Part shown: positions 7 to 42,412 of the stretch, piece after piece
Position numbering within the stretch: the stretch's first letter is position 1
Layout of the letters: the number at the start of each line of letters is the position of its first letter
DNA from: Oscillospiraceae bacterium
Lineage (GTDB): Bacteria > Bacillota_A > Clostridia > Oscillospirales > Oscillospiraceae
Assembly (NCBI GenBank): GCA_017627975.1
Contig: JAGAFT010000243.1
Location: forward strand, 1-42,414
DNA length: 42,414 nucleotides
Reading direction: 5' to 3'
Translations under genes and position numbers: made by a program
Notes under the pieces: generated by a model
What the model was told of the DNA's origin: nothing
The model's database searches: none
The model's input: the letters and a program-made list of their open reading frames with translations, nothing else

Positions 7-963
7 GTGTGCTCAAAGGTAACCTGGCCACGTTCTAATTTACGCACTCTTAGTGGCATACCGTCCCCCGGCCTAGCTCCGCAGCCCCAGTATACCATTT
101 TTCATGCATTTCGTGTGCAGCTTTGCGGCATGAGCGTTCTTTTCCGGGAGGGTGATCTTGCCCTCACCATGTACGTCATCAAGGCGGGGACGGTCGGCGT
201 ATATACCGATTACGGGACATCCTTTGAAAAACAGATTGCCGTTCTGAAACAGGGCGACTTCCTGGGTGAGATGGGAATGATCGAGGGCCTTCCGCGTACG
301 GCGACGGCTGTCGTGCTGGAGGATGCGGCGGTCCTGACCGAGCTGACCGAAGAAGATATGGCCCTCTACTTCCGGAACCAGCCGGATCAGATGATCCGGA
401 TCATGCGGCAGCTGAGTTCCCGGATCCGCGAGATGGACGGCCGTTTCTATTCCGCGTGCCGAACGCTGAGGGAGAGTGAAACCGCCACTCAGAGCGGGGC
501 CGAAAAAAGCGATGCGCTGAACAAAAAGCTGCAGGAGATCAGCCGGGAAGCCGATCGCCAGGACAGCTTTCGAATCGGACAGCAGTCTTCCTTCTTTCCC
601 TATGTGCTGGACGATCTTGAACAGTACGGAGAAAAGGACAGCATCGTCCGGGCAGGCTTCCTGGAAAAAAGGCTCAAACATACCGCTGCGCCGGGAGAGC
701 TGCACGCCAACCCGGATGATGAATTTTCAAAAGCTTCGGTCGGACCCAATGACCGCATCATCTCGGAATATGTCAAAATGATTCCCCAGCTTCGACGCCT
801 GGACGAACCGATTTATCCCGAAGCGGTCTATGTCACAAAACTGGCATCCGGCGGGTACAGGATTTTGAACGGTCACCATCGCTGGGCTGCCGCGCTGAAG
901 TGCGGACTGGACAAACTGCGGATCAGGATCCTGAATCCGGGGGATTCGGGCGGACTTTTCTGA
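7..963 (+). CDS. Cyclic-nucleotide-binding domain protein with C-terminal ParB-like domain (5' end uncertain)
   Basis: The product has a Crp-type cyclic-nucleotide-binding domain at about residues 46-145, with FREGD near its start and the GDFLGEMG...R-T-A-T-A segment that forms the phosphate-binding cassette. A variable linker follows, then a ParB/sulfiredoxin-like domain at about residues 235-312 ending in the NGHHRWAAAL motif. There is no helix-turn-helix, so it is probably not a transcription factor; a nucleotide-sensing protein with a ParB-type (possibly nucleotidyl-hydrolysing or kinase-like) domain is an inference. The N-terminal 42 residues do not look like the usual lead-in to this fold, and no ribosome site precedes the first start. 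The true start may lie outside the window, or be GTG at 115 or ATG at 130. The SpoIIE-type phosphatase gene starts 47 bases downstream on the same strand, so the two may act together. Confidence 0.75.
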   Translation: MCSKVTWPRSNLRTLSGIPSPGLAPQPQYTIFHAFRVQLCGMSVLFREGDLALTMYVIKAGTVGVYTDYGTSFEKQIAVLKQGDFLGEMGMIEGLPRTATAVVLEDAAVLTELTEEDMALYFRNQPDQMIRIMRQLSSRIREMDGRFYSACRTLRESETATQSGAEKSDALNKKLQEISREADRQDSFRIGQQSSFFPYVLDDLEQYGEKDSIVRAGFLEKRLKHTAAPGELHANPDDEFSKASVGPNDRIISEYVKMIPQLRRLDEPIYPEAVYVTKLASGGYRILNGHHRWAAALKCGLDKLRIRILNPGDSGGLF

Positions 964-1010
964 TCCTTATCATTTCTGTATACTGCCTGTGAGTGCGCAG
1001 GGGGAAATGC

Positions 1011-2738
1011 ATGAAAGTATACGAGAAAATTAAAACCAGACGGGGAACCATTGCCGGCCGAAACATCCGAAGCCTTGTTTTCCTCGGCCTGTTCCTGATC
1101 CTGGGTGTCGGCGTGGTGGGAGGCCAGCTTCTGTATACCAGAGCTTTAAAAATCTTCACCGATTATACCTATGCCAATGCCCACCTGCTTGCCGACAACA
1201 TCAGCGGCATTGCCCCGACAAAATTCTTTGAGACCGAGAAGAAGGACGAGGAGTACTTCAGCATCCGCTATATGTTTATGACGGCCGGGATTTATGCCGA
1301 GGAGTACAAGGATATCTATCTCGTGGTTCCGGGAGAAGACGATCTGGTTTATATCAGCGAGATCTATCACAATCTAGCCGAAGGAAATGAAAGCCTTTCG
1401 GACTCCCAGGCTGAATTCCTGGACCATCGGCCGTACCAGCCGGGTGAAAAAGAAATCATGACAGAGCTTCTGGAAAACAGGATGGCTCCAAGGGAGGAGA
1501 AGCTCTTCGTCGGCCTCAGAGAGCTGGAGGGGGAAAAACTCGCCACCGCACTGGTGCCTATCCGGTATATGGATGGTGAAGTGCCCGCCCTGATCGGAAT
1601 TGACGTATCCATCGCCGAGATTTTCGAAGCACAGATGAACCTCTACGTGATGCTGGCCATTACCATTGTCGTGATTACGGCTGTCGGAATTGTCGCACAT
1701 TATCTGATTCTGAACCGAAAGGTGATTCGCCCGATTCAGGCCCTGAAACAGGAGACGGATTCGCTGGTCGAGAATCTGGAGCGGGAGGAAGAATACGTCT
1801 CGGACGTGCATACCGGTGACGAGCTGGAAGCCCTGGCTCACTCGGTGGAGGAAATGGACCGCAGTCTGAAGCACTATATCCGCGAAAACGCGGCGATCAC
1901 GGCGGAGAGAGAACGTCTCAACACGGAGCTTATGCTTGCCGCGCGGATCCAGGAGGATATGCTTCCGCATATCTTTCCGCCGTTCCCGGAACGGAAGGAA
2001 GTCAGCCTTTTTGCCGTGATGGATCCGGCAAAAGAGGTTGGCGGCGACTTTTACGATTATTTCCTGATCGATGACAATCATCTTGGTCTGGTGATCGCGG
2101 ATGTTTCCGGCAAGGGTATCCCGGCGGCACTGTTTATGATGAAGTCGATGACACTGCTGCGAAACTGTGTGCTCGCCGGACTCGGTCCGAAGCAGGCGAT
2201 GGAACAGCTGAACAACCAGATCGCGGTCGACAATTCCGAGTCCATGTTTGTAACGGTCTGGCTTGGAATCCTCGATCTTAAGAACGGCAGCCTGGTGGCG
2301 GTGAACGCCGGGCATGAATATCCGGTTTTAAGAAGTCCCGAGGGCTGTTACGAGCTCTATAAAGACCGGCACGGACCGGCGGCCGGCAGCATGGAAGACC
2401 TCCGTTACAGGGAATATGAGCTGAAGCTGGAGCCCGGCAGCATCCTGTTCGTATATTCCGACGGCCTTCCGGAAGCAACCGACAGGAACAGCCGCCTTTT
2501 CGGGACAGATCGCACCCTGAAGGCGCTCAACGGCGTGTCCGGCGAGGACCCTGAAGAGGTTCTGAAGACGGTCAGGGAAGCGGTGAATGAATTTGTCGGG
2601 GAGGCGCCCCAGTTTGACGATCTGACCATGCTGTGCCTTGCCTATCACGGACCGGAGAAGAGTCCGGCGTCTGTGGGATCGGCTGTACAGGATCCGGAAG
2701 CGATGGAAAAGGGGGAAGAAGATGCAGCAGAAAAGTGA
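1011..2738 (+). CDS. Membrane-anchored SpoIIE/RsbU-type PP2C serine phosphatase with HAMP domain
   Basis: A 575-residue protein. A membrane segment at about 20-40 is followed by an extracellular sensor region to about 205, a second membrane segment (LYVMLAITIVV onward), a HAMP linker, a short coiled coil, and a SpoIIE-type PP2C domain from about 305. The phosphatase shows the metal-binding VGGDFYDYF and ADVSGKGIPAALFM segments and a closing FDDLTMLCL. In this family such proteins dephosphorylate anti-anti-sigma factors (RsbV/SpoIIAA type) or similar targets. No such partner gene is present here. The ATG at 1011 was chosen over GTG at 993 because AGGGGG lies six bases ahead of it. Its last 17 bases overlap the next gene, which suggests translational coupling to the small GG-leader peptide. 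Confidence 0.9.
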   Translation: MKVYEKIKTRRGTIAGRNIRSLVFLGLFLILGVGVVGGQLLYTRALKIFTDYTYANAHLLADNISGIAPTKFFETEKKDEEYFSIRYMFMTAGIYAEEYKDIYLVVPGEDDLVYISEIYHNLAEGNESLSDSQAEFLDHRPYQPGEKEIMTELLENRMAPREEKLFVGLRELEGEKLATALVPIRYMDGEVPALIGIDVSIAEIFEAQMNLYVMLAITIVVITAVGIVAHYLILNRKVIRPIQALKQETDSLVENLEREEEYVSDVHTGDELEALAHSVEEMDRSLKHYIRENAAITAERERLNTELMLAARIQEDMLPHIFPPFPERKEVSLFAVMDPAKEVGGDFYDYFLIDDNHLGLVIADVSGKGIPAALFMMKSMTLLRNCVLAGLGPKQAMEQLNNQIAVDNSESMFVTVWLGILDLKNGSLVAVNAGHEYPVLRSPEGCYELYKDRHGPAAGSMEDLRYREYELKLEPGSILFVYSDGLPEATDRNSRLFGTDRTLKALNGVSGEDPEEVLKTVREAVNEFVGEAPQFDDLTMLCLAYHGPEKSPASVGSAVQDPEAMEKGEEDAAEK

Positions 2739-3057
2739 GATCAAAGCGCTGTCATCCGAGGAGCTGGAACAGGTCGCCGGCGGCGCCACAAAAGCCTATA
2801 TCACCGCGGTCCGGCTGATGAACGGCGAATTCGGTTCAGGCGAGGACAGCCGAGCGGCGATTGCGGCTCTCGGACTGGACTACTGGAGCGTTCAGCATAT
2901 GGTAAAAGCCCTTTCACAGGGCTACGGCCAGGTGGCACAGGATGTCATCGACGGCAAATACGGAAAAGATGCGGCACGCTTTAAGGCCCTTTCCCTTGCC
3001 GGATACGACCCGATCCTGGTACAGCGGATTGTCAACGGCATGGTGAAAGACGACTGA
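2722..3057 (+). CDS. Small double-glycine-leader peptide with two CW_7-like (Cpl-7) wall-binding repeats
   Basis: A 111-residue protein starting at ATG 2722 after GGGGGAAGAAG, inside the end of the phosphatase gene. Residues 9-21 (ALSSEELEQVAGG) match the leader of peptides exported and cleaved by C39-peptidase ABC transporters: L-S-x-E-E-L-x-x-V-x-G-G. Cleavage after Gly21 would release about 90 residues. The mature part is two related repeats, at about 27-64 and 71-108. Both carry the G-x-[FY]-G ... A-x-G-x-D ... V-Q-x-x-V pattern of CW_7 domains, known from the cell-wall-binding end of the Cpl-7 lysozyme. There is no catalytic domain and no cysteine. A secreted wall-binding peptide, bacteriocin-like factor or signal are all possible. 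No C39 transporter or immunity gene is visible here. Coding status is well supported; function is inferred. Confidence 0.8.
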   Translation: MQQKSEIKALSSEELEQVAGGATKAYITAVRLMNGEFGSGEDSRAAIAALGLDYWSVQHMVKALSQGYGQVAQDVIDGKYGKDAARFKALSLAGYDPILVQRIVNGMVKDD

Positions 3058-36153: not shown

Positions 36154-36229
36154 GAAGGTTGCATTATAGTATCAAAATGACTGCAACTATATCTTGATCT
36201 TGTAATAAATGAAAGGACAATATATAGTC

Positions 36230-39200
36230 ATGATGGATTCTCTTCTGAAACGGATCGAAAAGAGCAAGAAGGCACACGGCAGATGGATCGCCATGGTTCT
36301 GTGTCTGTCGATGCTCGTCTCTCTGGGGACCTTTGCCGGCTTCCGCAAGACGGCGGTGGCGAAGGTCTATACCCGGGATGTGCTGGACTGCCCCTACACC
36401 TATGAGGGGGCGGAGCCGGTGGCGCATGTGCACAACGACGACTGCTACGAGGGGGATACCCTCGTCTGCACGCTGCCGGAGCTGGAAGCGCACACGCATT
36501 CCGACGCCTGCTACTCCGAGCGCCAGGTGCTCACCTGCACCCTCGAGGAAAACCCGGGGCATCAGCACACCGACGCCTGCTATGTCGAGCATAAGGTGCA
36601 GAGCTGCGGCCTTGAGGAGAATCCCGGTCATGAGCACAACGGCACCTGTTATAATGAAAGCGGCGTCCTGATTTGCCAGATTCCGGAGGGTGAGGGCGCG
36701 CATACGCATACCGATGATTGCTATACCGTTGAGCGCGAATTGACCTGTGTCATTCCGGAAGGCGAAGGCGCGCATACCCATGGCGCCGAATGCTTCGAGA
36801 CCGTACGGGAACTCACCTGTGGCAAGGCGGAGCTGACACCCCATGTCCATGGGCCGGAATGCATCCACACGGAAGAGATCACCGTCGATGAGCCGGAAGA
36901 AACCGTCGAGCCCGAAGTGACTGTCGAGCCAGAGGTCGCCGCGCAGCCGGAAGTGAGCGCCGAGCCGGAGGTCACCGCACAGCCGGAAGTGAGCGCCGAG
37001 CAGGAAGTCTCCGCGCAGCCGGAAGTGAGCGCCGAGCCGGAGGTCACCGCACAGCCCGAAGTGACCGTCGCTCCCGAGATGCCCGTCAGCGATCCGAACG
37101 CGGACCTTGAGAGCGCGTCCGAGTGGGAGAGCGACTTCGACGGCATGGAGCTCAGCGGAAACTGGGCCCAGGACCTTGTCCTCGTGGCCGCCACCCAGCA
37201 GGGTCACGGCGAGAGCCAGAACAACTTTGAAGCCTTTCTGAACGACGCAGGCGACGCCTGGGTCAGGCACGGCTATACCCGTTACGGCGCCTGGTCCGGC
37301 GCACCTTACGCGGACGAGTGGAGCGCGATGTTCGTCTCCTTCTGCCTGCGCTATGCCGGCATCCCGGCCGAGAACGTCCCCAACAACCCGACGGCCGCCC
37401 TTATGGCCGAGAGCTTCCAGAAGGGCGAGCTCTTCGCCGGACCGGACTATCTCCCCGCCGTCGGCGACCTGATCTTCTTCGACACGGACGACGAAGAGGG
37501 CATCGACCACATGGGCATCGTCTATCATGTGGATGAAGAGGACGGCAGCATCAACACCGTCGAGGGCAGCCGCACGGACGCGGTGGAAACCTTCGGCTAT
37601 CATCTGGGCGACGAAGAGATCGCCGGCTACGGCATCCTGCCGCAGAATCCGGACTATACTCCTATCGAAGAGACTACCGAGGACGTGACAAGTGAGCTCA
37701 TCGTCATGAGCACCGACGAGGAAGAAAAAGAAGAAAAGAACGAGACCGAAGAAGTCAAGCCGGTTGAAGAAACCAAGGCAGCCGAAGAAGTAACTGCGCC
37801 CGCCGTTCCCATGCCCGCACAGAGCTGGGAGAGAACGGCCGGCGGAATCAAGGTCACGGTGGATGCCCCGGAGGGCGCTTTCCCTGAAAACACAAAAATC
37901 GCCGTCACGCCCGTGAACGGCAACAGCCTGAAAGACACCGTCTCCGACGCCGTGAGCGGCGAGGTCCTGGAGGTCCAGGCCGTCGATATCACGTTCTTCG
38001 ACGCCGACGGAAACGAAATTGAGCCCGCCGTGCCCATCCGCGTGGTCATGACCCCGGCGGAAACCCAGCATGCGGAAGAGAAGACGAACGTCGTCCATAT
38101 TGACCTGGACCAGCAGACCGCCGAAGTGATCGAACAGGCCGCTGGCACCGAGACCGACAACAGCGAAGTTGTCTTCGACGCCGATGCCTTCACCATCTAT
38201 GCCATTGTCTATACTGTCGACACCTATTTCCGCAGCTGCACCGGCGAGACATTTCGTGTTACCATGGACTTTGACGAAAACGCCGGCATTCCGCAGAACG
38301 CGGAACTGGTGGTAGAGGAGATCCTTGAAGAAAGCGCGAACTACAGCGACCTGCTTTCTCAGGCAGAGAACGCCTTGGAGGGCAACAAACAGATCAGCTT
38401 TGTCCGCTTCTTTGACATCAGCATCATGGCCGATGGCGAAGAGGTGCAGCCTCTTGCGCCCGTTTCCATGAAAATCCAGCTGGCCGATCTTCCGGAAGAG
38501 ACCACCGTGGCCGACGCTCAGGTTATCCACTTCGGAAAGCAGCCGGAAGTTCTGAACGCTGAATCCATTGGAGCAAACGTGAGCTTTGAGACATCAAGCT
38601 TCTCAGTCTATGGTGTCGTCTATACTGTGGACTTTTCCTATGAAGTGGACGGCAAAGTGTACCGTTTCAGCATGCCCGGCGGGGGATTTGTGAGTTTAAC
38701 AGACCTGGTAGAAGTGCTGGGTATAATTGGGGACACGAACTCCGATGAAAATGCGGCGGAAAGTGCTGAAATTGCGAAAGAAAACGCTGTCAACGAAGGG
38801 GCGGAAGAGAGTGGTGTAAATTCTGAGACGAACACGGCACTCACACTTGGCGATGTGGAAGTATCGGATGATACGAGGAAATTCGTAGCGGACATGGAGA
38901 GCGTGGAGTTCTCCAATCCGGAACTTGTGGATATCAGCAAGGTTGAGGCATATACTACGGTTGGTCAGATTAAGGAAAGCCGTGGGCTTGATGTTGAGTA
39001 CAGTGCTGAGCTGACGGAAGAGAAGATTGCAGAGATCAATGGGACTGTTGTCGAGTCTGGGGACTGGGCTTTAATTAGCGTACACCCGTTTGATACAGAA
39101 GAGACGCTGACTGTCACCATGAAGGATGGTGAGGTGTTTACAATCAAAGTGACAGATGCGCAGTATATAAACGGCGCTACTGTACACTATGGATATATGG

Positions 39201-42200
39201 AAGGAAACACATTCCATGAGTTTACTAGCGAGCAATTCACGCCTCCGACAAGTGGATTTGGAACACCGGCATATCTGATTTATGATGTACCGGGATATCA
39301 GTATGCGGGAACGACGTATCATGACTATGAAACTACAAATCCTTATTGGCCATGGGAGTCTGTTAAACATCATGATGAAGTTCCTCCCATCATAGAATTC
39401 CAAAATGCCACAGGAGACTATTATGTCTGCTACGAGCCCAGACCAACAGCGACGCAGGGCGGCACAAGCAGTATTCAGGAGGACTATCCGCAGGAGCCAA
39501 CGGTGCTCAAAAAATCGGCAGAGAACCCGAATACCGGAACCAATACGATCTCGCTTGAAGTTTCAGGCCCTCAAAAGACCGCAAAAGCGAAAGCAGATAT
39601 CATCGTTATTTATGATGTGTCCGGTAGTATGAGATTCCCCATCGGATTCAATTCGCTGACGGATGTTCAGCCGGGTGAAGATGCAGGCAAATATATAGTT
39701 CCTGACACTGATCCAAGCCAAAGGAACTATATCGTAAAAAGGGCGATACAAAAGCTTGCAAGTGAATTAATGGGAGAGCAGACCGCGGCAGATCCGGCTG
39801 TTCGAATGGGGATCGTCCCATTTTCCACAAGTGCCGGGACGATTGTTCCATTTACAGGCAGTGCCGATACGTTTAACAGGGCTGTTGGCAGCCTTGCGCT
39901 GGGTGGAGGCACGAACTGGGAAGATGCCCTCCAGGCCGCGAACGCTATGAGCGTGAGGGAAGACGCCGACACCTATGTGATCTTCGTCACGGACGGCAAT
40001 CCCACATTCCGGATCTCGCGGCAGGGAGCGACAGACAGTCAGATTACCTCTGTTGATAATAAGAGTGGTGTCACGCGGGATTACTATGACCAGTTGGGCA
40101 TTTTCGGAACCGGTAATGCAGACGCTGACAAATCCTCTACGGATTCATTGAATCGAAATTATGACGCGGCACTGGCTATTGCGAAGGCGATCGTCGGAAG
40201 CAGCAAAAACCTGTACGGTATCGGAATCTCCGAAGAAGCAAAGAAGCTGGAGAATCTGATCAATGAGTCAGGAACCGGCGGCAATTATTATGAGGTAACA
40301 ACGCAAGGCGGTATAGAACCCGCTATTGAGGATATCAAGAATCAGATTAAAGAGAAGACCTTCGGCTACTCCGATGTTCAGATCAGCGACGGCATCACGG
40401 CTCTGACCCAGACTGTGCAGAAAACCGGCATGACCAATCTGCCTGACAGCGACGATTTTGAGTACTTCAAGGGGCATGCGGCCACGCAGGAAGACGTCGA
40501 TGCCGGCAAGGCCGCGAAGGTCGGTGATACCGTATGGGAGACCTGGACAGCGGAACAGATGGCGAAGGAAGGCGCAGGCCGCGCCGCCTATAACAGCGAT
40601 ACCGGTGCCGTCGAATGGAACCTCGGTGAGACCTTTATGTTGGAGGAGGGCGTAAGCTACAAGGTGGACTTCACCGTCTGGCCCAGCCAGGAGGCATATG
40701 ATCTGCTGGCGGATCTGAATAACGGACTGAAGGATTATGACACACTGGATCAGAGCGTAAGAGCCCAGATCAAGAAGAACGGAACCGGCGAAAACGCAAC
40801 TTACACGCTGAAGACAAACCGGGATGATGAAACCGGTAATCCTGCAGGTTACACCTATAAGAAAGCAACGAAAGAAGGAGAAGACGGCGACGTAACGCCA
40901 ACCGGAGATCCGATCCCCGGGACCTTTGATCCTGTGATCCCGCTCAAGCTTCGAACGGATAAGATTGGTGTGGAGAAGTCTTTCAGCAACCTTCTTGACT
41001 CGCGCGATCCGACACAGATCCAGCTGGAGCTGTGGGGAAACCGGCTTTATAAGACATTTACCCTTACGAAGGACGGACAGTGGAAGTCGGATGACAACTA
41101 TATCTCCTGCGGCCTCCTGACCGTGGATAAAGAAACGGATAAGCTGTATGTCTATGAGACCGGACATGACTTTACTCTGAAGGAGACCGGCGAGGATTCC
41201 ATCTACTGGGAACTGACAGCGGACACCTATCATCCGATGGTGATCAATGATGTGCTGCATATGCTATCCAAAGTAGATGCTCCGGTAGGTATGTCTGCAG
41301 ACACGAAGTATTACTGTGCAGATGATGGCAAGGAATACTACAGGGTGGAAGGAAACGTTTATCGTGACGAGGGGACAGATGCGGTACTAAAGGCCGTCAA
41401 TGATCACAGAAGCTTCCTGGATCTCAGTAAAGAGGTCATCGGTGACGGTGATGAACCGGTTGCGAGTGATGACTTGTTTACCTTTGAGGCACAGTTTAAT
41501 GAAAGCAGAACAGACGATGACATCATCTTTACTGTATATGATACTGTCAGTAAAGAGTACATCAGCGATGTGAGCATTACAACCGCCACGTTGACTCCTG
41601 CCGATGACGCAACCAACACCAGACCCTATTATGTTGCAAAGAATAACACAAAATTTACTCTAAAGATCAAGCAGGGATGGAATGTGCGTTTTCTGAATCT
41701 GTCCAATGCTACAACCTACACCATTAAGGAGGTACTTGAAGATACAGAGTATGTATTTATAAAAATAGAAGGTGATGCGAAAAAGACAGGTACGGATCAC
41801 AACTCGGCTTCAGTAAATACACACATGACGATTACTCTCGGTAATACAGAGATGAGCGGAACAATAGAAGAAGCGAACGTTCTGTACAGCGTGAAGTATA
41901 CTAACAAAGCGCCCAAAAAGAAGATCCAGATCCTTAAAACTGATCAGTCAGGCTCGACGCCATTGAAGGGTGCGGAGTTCTCTTTGTACGGGAGTGATCA
42001 CTATGATGAGGAAGGTAATGTCAACCCAGAAGCACAGGCACTTGAGTCAAACAAAGCGACCGACCAAAACGGTATTCTTGATTTAGGCCAGTACACATGG
42101 GGGACATATTATCTGGTGGAGGAGAAAGCTCCGGAAGGTTATATAAAGCTCGATAAACCGATCAAAATAGTATTGTCAGCTTCTCCTGCATATGAACAGA

Positions 42201-42412
42201 GCGAATCATCCTTGTCAACCTCAGGAAATGGTATAACGCCATTGCAGGATGAAGGACAAAGGGTGATGGGGTATCAGTTTAAAGTAACCAATGATGCCGG
42301 ATATGAGCTCCCCTCCACCGGCGGCTCTGGCACCACGCTTCTCTATCTCTTCGGCGGCATCCTGATCCTTGGAGCGGGAGTACTGCTGTGGAGGAGACGG
42401 AGATTGATTTAA
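36230..42412 (+). CDS. Large sortase-anchored surface protein: His/Cys repeats, CHAP-like, VWA and Cna-B-like domains
   Basis: A 2060-residue protein. It has a signal sequence at about 15-45, then seven H-x-H-x3-C repeats (about 60-215, probably metal-binding). Next come a Pro/Glu/Val repeat spacer (about 218-287) and a CHAP-like domain (about 325-465). Two beta-rich modules and an extracellular region to about 1080 follow. The VWA domain (about 1120-1380) has an intact metal site: D1129-V-S-G-S1133, T1228, D1255. Cna-B/pilin-like modules run from about 1580 to 2020, ending in LPSTG (2027-2031), a membrane helix and RRRR. It is most like a tip adhesin of a Gram-positive pilus or a lone adhesin. 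No sortase or major pilin gene is in the window. ATG 36230 was chosen because AAAGGA precedes it. The gene ends two bases before the window edge. Confidence 0.88.
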   Translation: MMDSLLKRIEKSKKAHGRWIAMVLCLSMLVSLGTFAGFRKTAVAKVYTRDVLDCPYTYEGAEPVAHVHNDDCYEGDTLVCTLPELEAHTHSDACYSERQVLTCTLEENPGHQHTDACYVEHKVQSCGLEENPGHEHNGTCYNESGVLICQIPEGEGAHTHTDDCYTVERELTCVIPEGEGAHTHGAECFETVRELTCGKAELTPHVHGPECIHTEEITVDEPEETVEPEVTVEPEVAAQPEVSAEPEVTAQPEVSAEQEVSAQPEVSAEPEVTAQPEVTVAPEMPVSDPNADLESASEWESDFDGMELSGNWAQDLVLVAATQQGHGESQNNFEAFLNDAGDAWVRHGYTRYGAWSGAPYADEWSAMFVSFCLRYAGIPAENVPNNPTAALMAESFQKGELFAGPDYLPAVGDLIFFDTDDEEGIDHMGIVYHVDEEDGSINTVEGSRTDAVETFGYHLGDEEIAGYGILPQNPDYTPIEETTEDVTSELIVMSTDEEEKEEKNETEEVKPVEETKAAEEVTAPAVPMPAQSWERTAGGIKVTVDAPEGAFPENTKIAVTPVNGNSLKDTVSDAVSGEVLEVQAVDITFFDADGNEIEPAVPIRVVMTPAETQHAEEKTNVVHIDLDQQTAEVIEQAAGTETDNSEVVFDADAFTIYAIVYTVDTYFRSCTGETFRVTMDFDENAGIPQNAELVVEEILEESANYSDLLSQAENALEGNKQISFVRFFDISIMADGEEVQPLAPVSMKIQLADLPEETTVADAQVIHFGKQPEVLNAESIGANVSFETSSFSVYGVVYTVDFSYEVDGKVYRFSMPGGGFVSLTDLVEVLGIIGDTNSDENAAESAEIAKENAVNEGAEESGVNSETNTALTLGDVEVSDDTRKFVADMESVEFSNPELVDISKVEAYTTVGQIKESRGLDVEYSAELTEEKIAEINGTVVESGDWALISVHPFDTEETLTVTMKDGEVFTIKVTDAQYINGATVHYGYMEGNTFHEFTSEQFTPPTSGFGTPAYLIYDVPGYQYAGTTYHDYETTNPYWPWESVKHHDEVPPIIEFQNATGDYYVCYEPRPTATQGGTSSIQEDYPQEPTVLKKSAENPNTGTNTISLEVSGPQKTAKAKADIIVIYDVSGSMRFPIGFNSLTDVQPGEDAGKYIVPDTDPSQRNYIVKRAIQKLASELMGEQTAADPAVRMGIVPFSTSAGTIVPFTGSADTFNRAVGSLALGGGTNWEDALQAANAMSVREDADTYVIFVTDGNPTFRISRQGATDSQITSVDNKSGVTRDYYDQLGIFGTGNADADKSSTDSLNRNYDAALAIAKAIVGSSKNLYGIGISEEAKKLENLINESGTGGNYYEVTTQGGIEPAIEDIKNQIKEKTFGYSDVQISDGITALTQTVQKTGMTNLPDSDDFEYFKGHAATQEDVDAGKAAKVGDTVWETWTAEQMAKEGAGRAAYNSDTGAVEWNLGETFMLEEGVSYKVDFTVWPSQEAYDLLADLNNGLKDYDTLDQSVRAQIKKNGTGENATYTLKTNRDDETGNPAGYTYKKATKEGEDGDVTPTGDPIPGTFDPVIPLKLRTDKIGVEKSFSNLLDSRDPTQIQLELWGNRLYKTFTLTKDGQWKSDDNYISCGLLTVDKETDKLYVYETGHDFTLKETGEDSIYWELTADTYHPMVINDVLHMLSKVDAPVGMSADTKYYCADDGKEYYRVEGNVYRDEGTDAVLKAVNDHRSFLDLSKEVIGDGDEPVASDDLFTFEAQFNESRTDDDIIFTVYDTVSKEYISDVSITTATLTPADDATNTRPYYVAKNNTKFTLKIKQGWNVRFLNLSNATTYTIKEVLEDTEYVFIKIEGDAKKTGTDHNSASVNTHMTITLGNTEMSGTIEEANVLYSVKYTNKAPKKKIQILKTDQSGSTPLKGAEFSLYGSDHYDEEGNVNPEAQALESNKATDQNGILDLGQYTWGTYYLVEEKAPEGYIKLDKPIKIVLSASPAYEQSESSLSTSGNGITPLQDEGQRVMGYQFKVTNDAGYELPSTGGSGTTLLYLFGGILILGAGVLLWRRRRLI
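36944..37052 (+). repeat. 36-bp tandem repeats coding for the Pro-Glu-Val spacer
   Basis: CAGCCGGAAGTGAGCGCCGA begins copies at 36944, 36980 and 37016, a 36-base period equal to 12 codons. The repeats encode alternating QPEVSA and EPEVTA units, in frame, and could expand or contract by slippage. Confidence 0.85.

Follow-up and report, generated by a model that had tools for sequence, protein, structure and literature searches.

Double-glycine-leader CW_7 proteins as predicted cargo of NHLM-type exporters in gut and rumen Clostridia

Among the architectures in which the wall-binding CW_7 domain (Pfam PF08230) occurs, hydrolases are frequent (PMC5705596, section 5), and in the pneumococcal phage endolysin Cpl-7 the substitution of Arg271, Gln286 or their equivalents weakens the GMDP signals, as the same article reports. 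When the binding domains of gut-phage endolysins were surveyed, CW_7 and LysM ranked as the two most abundant (PMC13284279). Double-glycine (GG) leaders belong to a different context: their cleavage by a characterised C39 protease depends on positions -12, -7 and -4 and on the Gly-Gly pair (PMC6363468, section 8). In annotation, such leaders, like NHLM exporters, are usually assigned to bacteriocin or RiPP machinery.

The new analysis concerns a gene that joins a GG leader to CW_7 repeats. It lies in a stretch of 42,414 nucleotides from an Oscillospiraceae bacterium (GenBank assembly GCA_017627975.1, contig JAGAFT010000243.1), which is referred to here as the window. The open reading frame at 2722..3057 (+) starts with ATG behind a candidate ribosome-binding site (GGGGG, 2711..2715, +) and encodes a protein of 111 residues, P0001. 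A sequence-only reading of this DNA had proposed a GG leader and two CW_7-like repeats with no catalytic domain, and each of these elements has held up. Specifically, the whole protein matches PF08230 in two stretches (E 2.3e-15; 56.5 bits against a cut-off of 25), this being the sole Pfam match over cut-off on the 111-residue chain, and no catalytic domain was found on it. The leader comprises residues 1-21 (2722..2784, +), ends in VAGG and places Leu10, Leu15 and Val18 at -12, -7 and -4 ahead of Gly20-Gly21; hydrophobic residues at these three positions together with GG are those of an NHLM/C39 substrate, and a C39 cut is predicted after Gly21. The AlphaFold2 model, built with 38 sequences (mean pLDDT 80.9), agrees with the proposed repeats in that helices at 21-33, 41-49 and 54-65, and then at 68-76, 84-92 and 97-107, form two three-helix units; the leader is of low confidence, with residues 1-8 under 50. 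In comparison with the copies at L001, L002 and L004, third codon positions vary most (56, 58 and 50, with 18-30 at each of the other two positions), and the codon pattern, judging by these comparisons, is that of a selected gene.

Because GG-leader-like frames also arise by chance, the leader on its own is weak evidence; the window holds two of them, against a mean of 0.33 and a maximum of 2 in 30 dinucleotide shuffles. It is conservation, rather than the presence of the motif, that makes the leader of P0001 convincing when the homologues are aligned: Gly20 and Gly21 are conserved to at least 90% in 60 rows, which comprise the query and 59 of 69 homologues. Profiles for generic leaders and class II bacteriocins match P0001 below cut-off only (PF10439, 13.7 against 27.1; TIGR03949, 15.4 against 21.5). 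Leaders of the NHLP (TIGR03793) or Nif11 type (TIGR03798) gave no match in P0001 at E<=10, nor any at E<=0.1 in the one GG-CW_7 and three GG-LysM peptides that were scanned.

The architecture is shared by dozens of homologues, 69 of 82 candidates matching P0001 at E<=10 and 114 proteins being returned by the profile search at E<=1e-3. By eye, they include a two-repeat GG form (e.g. P0085-P0098, P0101 and P0102), a one-repeat form with a GG leader and a single CW_7 (P0109, P0112-P0115 and P0117), and a third form in which a hydrophobic Sec-type signal precedes the same two repeats. The Sec-type call was made from hydropathy and by eye rather than with a signal-peptide predictor, the best 12-residue N-terminal hydropathy being 2.0-3.5 in the 14 Sec-type proteins and -1.5 to 0.8 in 16 GG leaders. 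Homologues that lack the GG leader had been named beforehand as an argument against the reading, and it applies in part, these 14 being of that kind; they also form one group within that of the window. A tree built from 61 mature parts unites the 16 window-type GG sequences with the 14 Sec forms (100/100), and inside this group the Sec forms are nested as a group of their own (99/96); the remaining 31 sequences are other GG proteins, mostly from exporter loci. Nested in this way, the Sec group reads as a swap of export signal, which supports an extracellular destination, and a direction from GG to Sec is suggested, no more firmly than a tree with few columns and a midpoint root allows.

Scored separately, repeat 2 (residues 70-107; 2929..3042, +) reaches 42.1 bits and matches Cpl-7 structures in the PDB (5i8l, E 2.9e-12; 4cvd, 0.0017), and repeat 1 (2797..2916, +) reaches 19.4 bits (E 9e-4), under the cut-off of 25. 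In relatives, repeat 1 scores 31.5 bits (G005:C2), 26.6 bits (G003:C128) and, below cut-off, 23.9 bits (G002); on these scores and the predicted helices, it is a genuine but divergent CW_7. Repeat 2 has both the Arg and the Gln of the CW_7 muropeptide site: Arg86 and Gln101, the equivalents of Arg271 and Gln286 in Cpl-7, are invariant in 61/61 mature sequences, and position 76, at a further muropeptide-contact position of Cpl-7, is Ile in P0001 and in 58/61. Repeat 1 of P0001 has Arg44 and Gln58, both of which vary among its kin. The Arg is found in 13/16 window-type, 13/14 Sec-type and 8/31 other GG sequences, and the Gln in 13/16, 0/14 (Arg in 14/14) and 31/31, respectively. With contact residues replaced to this extent (the Arg in 23/31 other GG sequences, the Gln in 14/14 Sec forms), repeat 1 may not bind GMDP.

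The distribution of the peptide is patchy and limited to a clade. Relatives of P0001 are encoded at ten genome loci (204 pattern matches, 10 confirmed); these come from Clostridiales, Lachnospiraceae, Ruminococcaceae and Oscillospiraceae, two of them from sheep rumen and goat ileum, and CW_7 was found in 10/10 of their genomes. In the order of G008, 17 of 394 genomes match A3 at 1e-6, and the matches besides G008 lie in open frames of 242-594 residues, a length that is lysin-size; among 200 genomes of the family of G005, CW_7 occurs in 7 and is of the GG type in 5 of these 7. A broad distribution was rejected on these counts from the order of G008 and the family of G005. A phage origin was likewise rejected: viral contigs gave 68 pattern matches and 0 confirmed, and of the 15 phage places listed among 47 matching records, 13 are annotated as lysins or amidases, with 1 hypothetical and 1 unannotated. 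Tandem duplicates and diversified GG-CW_7 copies occur in G589 and G595.

The sequence-only reading had further proposed a look for a C39 transporter elsewhere in the genome. The window itself has no exporter, with no match to ABC1, ABC2, STAS or LysM cargo within its 42 kb, so the export route of the window copy is one that we infer from its kin. There, a C39 peptidase is found over cut-off in 10/10 genomes from the genome scan for P0001 relatives, and the NHLM-type C39 exporter often adjoins the GG-CW_7 gene. Specifically, the peptide at L053 (G007) lies beside an NHLM pair with both members over cut-off (TIGR03796, 932 against 853 bits; TIGR03797, 737 against 709). The comparison sample consisted of 80 relatives of G005, the relatives of G007 being nearly the same genomes and counted once. 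CW_7 is present in 24/80, of which 21 have the GG-leader form, with the leader read individually in each genome, and 3 (G216, G238 and G583) have lysin-size frames only. TIGR03796 is over cut-off in 27/80, as against 0/14 control genomes, and these matches fall in 20/21 GG-CW_7 genomes versus 7/59 others (Fisher p 4.7e-12, uncorrected for kinship and, because the genomes are kin, not to be taken as a true probability). Its presence in 7/59 relatives that have no GG-CW_7 implies that the exporter has other cargo. The sole GG-CW_7 genome with no exporter over cut-off is G573, at 1.2 Mb. Ten further genomes, picked for having the peptide, have the exporter in 10/10, which brings the pooled count to 30/31. 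Peptide and exporter lie 695-9199 bp apart in 21/31 genomes; in the other 10/31, which are draft assemblies and include G573, no contig was found on which the two lie less than 10 kb apart. The four genomes that share the SpoIIE-peptide pair of the window (G001, G002, G004 and G005), and G003, all have the exporter.

The exporter loci place this architecture in a set that is wider than the sequence-only reading envisaged: by leader and domain content, one-repeat CW_7, two-repeat CW_7 and LysM are members of the same set. A crude motif sort of 43 stretches around exporter matches assigned GG-LysM to 24 and GG-CW_7 to 21, with either in 27 and neither in 16, where the exporter match of L061 is below cut-off and that of L152 partial, and where the sort misses some cargo (L156) and mislabels a few frames. 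Since these labels misassign some frames, Pfam was relied on for the sample scanned, and it confirmed LysM in ten GG-LysM candidates, three with E 6e-13, 1e-10 and 4e-14 and seven with E 6e-10 to 1e-18. Bare single-LysM GG peptides occur in NHLM loci at L136:10641-10904(-) and L136:10958-11161(-), in L137, L138, L150, L053, L054 and L056, and in others. One class of 87 residues (A5) is present in 13/80 relatives, 13/13 of which are exporter-positive (p 6.4e-8), and the profile of one 87-residue GG-LysM class matches 1026 protein clusters at E<=1e-10 (the best 120 of 1026 are listed), a count of profile matches rather than of leaders checked one by one. On such profile counts, the wall-binding kit is not rare.

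That wall-binding domains are the exclusive cargo was rejected, because the same loci hold two further kinds of GG protein. One is a GG-leader RDSWFV/RHSWFV family near the second ABC gene (L136:4946-5227(-), L052:14947-15201(+), L148:5437-5700(-) and L159:10846-11049(+)). The other is a protein of about 140-150 residues (L053:1048-1479(-), L054:8152-8583(+), L064:9900-10322(-), L138:14663-15085(+) and L155:12066-12518(+)), which AlphaFold2 models as all-beta (pLDDT 70, five sequences) and which gave no Pfam match in the two members scanned. A D-Ala-D-Ala dipeptidase is encoded in the exporter locus L150 (5332-5994(+); PF01427, E 9e-39), with look-alikes recognised by eye at L137:16396-17055(-) and L056:6144-6878(+); its presence suggests a wall-related role. 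At L061:9654-9938(-) (G001:C101), a precursor with a long leader that is Nif11-like by eye lies beside a second NHLM exporter, below cut-off, so that G001 also appears to contain a RiPP-type locus of the usual kind.

In the window, P0001 follows a HAMP-SpoIIE (PP2C-type) phosphatase gene (993..2738, +; PF07228, E 1.4e-48, with HAMP below cut-off), the end of which overlaps the start of P0001 by 17 bases. A SpoIIE gene whose product is 65-73% identical lies directly upstream of the peptide at L001, L002, L004 and L005, and the contig end at L003 shows a 45-residue piece of a SpoIIE phosphatase only. One protein, P0068, is an in-frame phosphatase-CW_7 chimera (PF07228 plus PF08230), probably the product of a deletion or a misassembly that joined the neighbouring genes. 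Upstream of the phosphatase, a frame at 7..963 (+) encodes a cyclic-nucleotide-binding domain (PF00027, E 1.8e-14) with a weak ParB-like C-terminus (ParB_N, 13.6 bits against a cut-off of 26.3). No phage genes were recognised beside P0001. At the far end of the window, 36209-42412 (+) encodes a 2067-residue surface protein that ends in an LPSTG motif, a hydrophobic stretch and arginines, an end that we take to be a sortase anchor.

Relatives of both upstream genes recur in exporter loci. SpoIIE homologues are found at L073/G118 (59% over 280 residues) and at L056/G010 (43% over 369 residues); the C-terminal part of the 7-963 product is 43% identical over 98 residues to L056:3815-4108, and its cNMP part is 46% identical over 54 residues to a gene at the edge of the exporter locus L137. 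In G118 (L136), one strand carries a SpoIIE gene and, after it, genes for GG-CW_7, two GG-LysM, a STAS-like and a short HlyD-like protein, ABC1, ABC2 and another GG peptide, where SpoIIE, CW_7 and LysM were called by Pfam, ABC1 by TIGR03796 over cut-off, and STAS, HlyD and ABC2 by likeness to L150 and L053; the SpoIIE protein of this genome has dCache and HATPase domains. In G010 (L056), SpoIIE and the gene resembling the C-terminal part of 7-963 both lie upstream of the exporter. With such relatives in exporter loci, the window copy resembles a pair of cargo and regulator genes set apart from the exporter. By the crude motif sort, the exporter stretches of G004 and G005 hold GG-CW_7 or GG-LysM and those of G001, G002 and G003, whose window-type peptide is encoded elsewhere, hold neither; the missing cargo in these last three counts against reading the window as detached cargo.

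The available data are compatible with a model in which P0001 is a non-catalytic peptidoglycan-binding protein that is exported by an NHLM/C39 system, probably onto the wall of its producer; we give this reading, which was built from sequence comparison and structure prediction, a probability of about 60%, and it extends the secreted peptidoglycan-binding peptide proposed by the sequence-only reading, which co-occurrence with the NHLM-type C39 exporter and adjacency to it support. According to this model, the 21-residue leader would direct P0001 to the NHLM-type C39 ABC exporter, which would cut after Gly-Gly and thereby yield a mature protein of 90 residues in which each of the two CW_7 repeats forms a three-helix bundle. 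Muropeptide units of peptidoglycan would then be bound by repeat 2 and, through an altered pocket, probably by repeat 1 as well. The most likely target would be the wall of the producer itself, where the protein may stay as a coat, as a cross-link or as a competitor of wall hydrolases. P0001 would thus be one of several exported modules (one-repeat CW_7, two-repeat CW_7 and LysM) that share an exporter type, and the SpoIIE-type phosphatase encoded upstream is probably linked to the expression or the export of P0001.

Nothing in the data separates the producer's own wall from the walls of its neighbours, and the roles outside the cell are ranked with the own-wall coat or shield first, a bacteriocin second and muropeptide capture third. 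P0001 could be a bacteriocin of a new type, in which the exported pair of CW_7 repeats attaches to competitor walls and stops growth or wall synthesis there, with the producer immune. A GG leader with a C39/NHLM exporter is the equipment of bacteriocins and RiPPs (Haft et al. 2010, PMC2887384), and the duplicated and diverged copies of G589 and G595 would fit such a role. The core, however, is a known wall-binding domain, bacteriocin profiles match below cut-off only, and inspection by eye of the mapped loci, which contain small genes with no assigned role, brought no recognisable immunity gene to light. The net charge of the mature protein, 0 in the window and -8 to +4 over the 61 mature sequences, also speaks against a bacteriocin, an argument that is weakened by a survey according to which class II bacteriocins found by mining exceed typical antimicrobial peptides in length, carry less positive charge and have GG or Sec leaders (PMC12648078), so that a neutral charge and a Sec-type sister group are compatible with this reading. 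On balance, we regard it as unlikely. More doubtful still is the idea that the protein captures or senses muropeptides, in that it would bind extracellular fragments released from the wall and so serve scavenging or signalling. In its favour are the D-Ala-D-Ala dipeptidase of L150 and its look-alikes in L137 and L056, the dCache and HATPase domains of the G118 SpoIIE, and the binding of soluble GMDP by the CW_7 repeats of Cpl-7 (PMC5705596, section 10). Against it, LysM generally binds polymer, and inspection by eye revealed neither an uptake system nor a receptor that would take the complex.

P0001 might instead be a cytosolic or otherwise non-exported protein with a chance leader, or the remnant of a phage lysin. 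Two leader-like frames in the window where 0.33 are expected, and a domain typical of lysins, as in 13 of the 15 phage places listed among 47 matching records, lend this some colour. Against it, the leader is conserved in 60 rows, is swapped for a Sec-type signal in one group and is linked to the exporter, and a lysin remnant is at odds with the codon pattern of a selected gene, the lack of a catalytic domain and the lack of recognised phage genes alongside; we therefore consider it very improbable. The preferred reading, in which the protein coats the wall of its producer, can be carried further as a speculation that we regard as unlikely: a group of gut and rumen Clostridia may have converted a RiPP/bacteriocin exporter to the secretion of bare modules (CW_7 and LysM) under the control of a SpoIIE/STAS partner switch, and these modules may coat the producer's own wall and occupy the sites of phage or competitor lysins, as a decoy defence at the level of the wall. 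If the modules do block lysins, they would constitute phage defence at the wall. If it is true that the cargo in one group of gut and rumen bacteria consists of bare peptidoglycan-binding domains, some predicted 'bacteriocin' loci serve another function, and the proteins would form a new class of secreted wall proteins that is open to direct tests.

Searches of the literature, which took in neither most subscription journals nor preprints, found no work that joins CW_7 to a double-glycine leader or to an ABC transporter with a leader peptide, and, within the same limits, none that joins LysM to NHLP and an ABC transporter or to a double-glycine C39 leader peptide. In the main text of PMC5705596, as far as available, the terms leader, double glycine, signal peptide and bacteriocin were not found; nor, in the available main text of Haft et al. 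(PMC2887384), were 'LysM' and 'peptidoglycan'. The LysM passage of PMC3482391 concerns polymorphic toxins, 'double-glycine' not being found in its available text, and LysM, CW_7 and peptidoglycan were not found in the available main texts on class II bacteriocins (PMC12648078) and rumen bacteriocins (PMC13289728). The conserved kind of cargo is real and the kind of exporter is known; their pairing was not found in print by the searches made.

Taken together, P0001 resembles three described systems and departs from each of them. With the class II bacteriocins (PF10439, TIGR03949) it has in common the leader pattern and a presumed C39 route; unlike theirs, its core is a known wall-binding domain, and their profiles match it below cut-off. 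The NHLM export system (TIGR03794/03796/03797), described by Haft et al. (2010) with nitrile-hydratase-leader and Nif11 cargo, has the same exporter pair as L053, where both members are over both cut-offs; the cargo here differs in combining a short GG leader that has no NHLP or Nif11 match with wall-binding domains, and the HlyD partner at L053 differs in having 141 residues that match positions 2-52 of 421 with 28 bits against a cut-off of 156. In contrast to Cpl-7, finally, P0001 has no catalytic domain, carries a GG leader and has two repeats rather than three, the first of them divergent, yet it belongs to the same PF08230 family, and its second repeat shows Ile, Arg and Gln at the same muropeptide-site positions as this endolysin.
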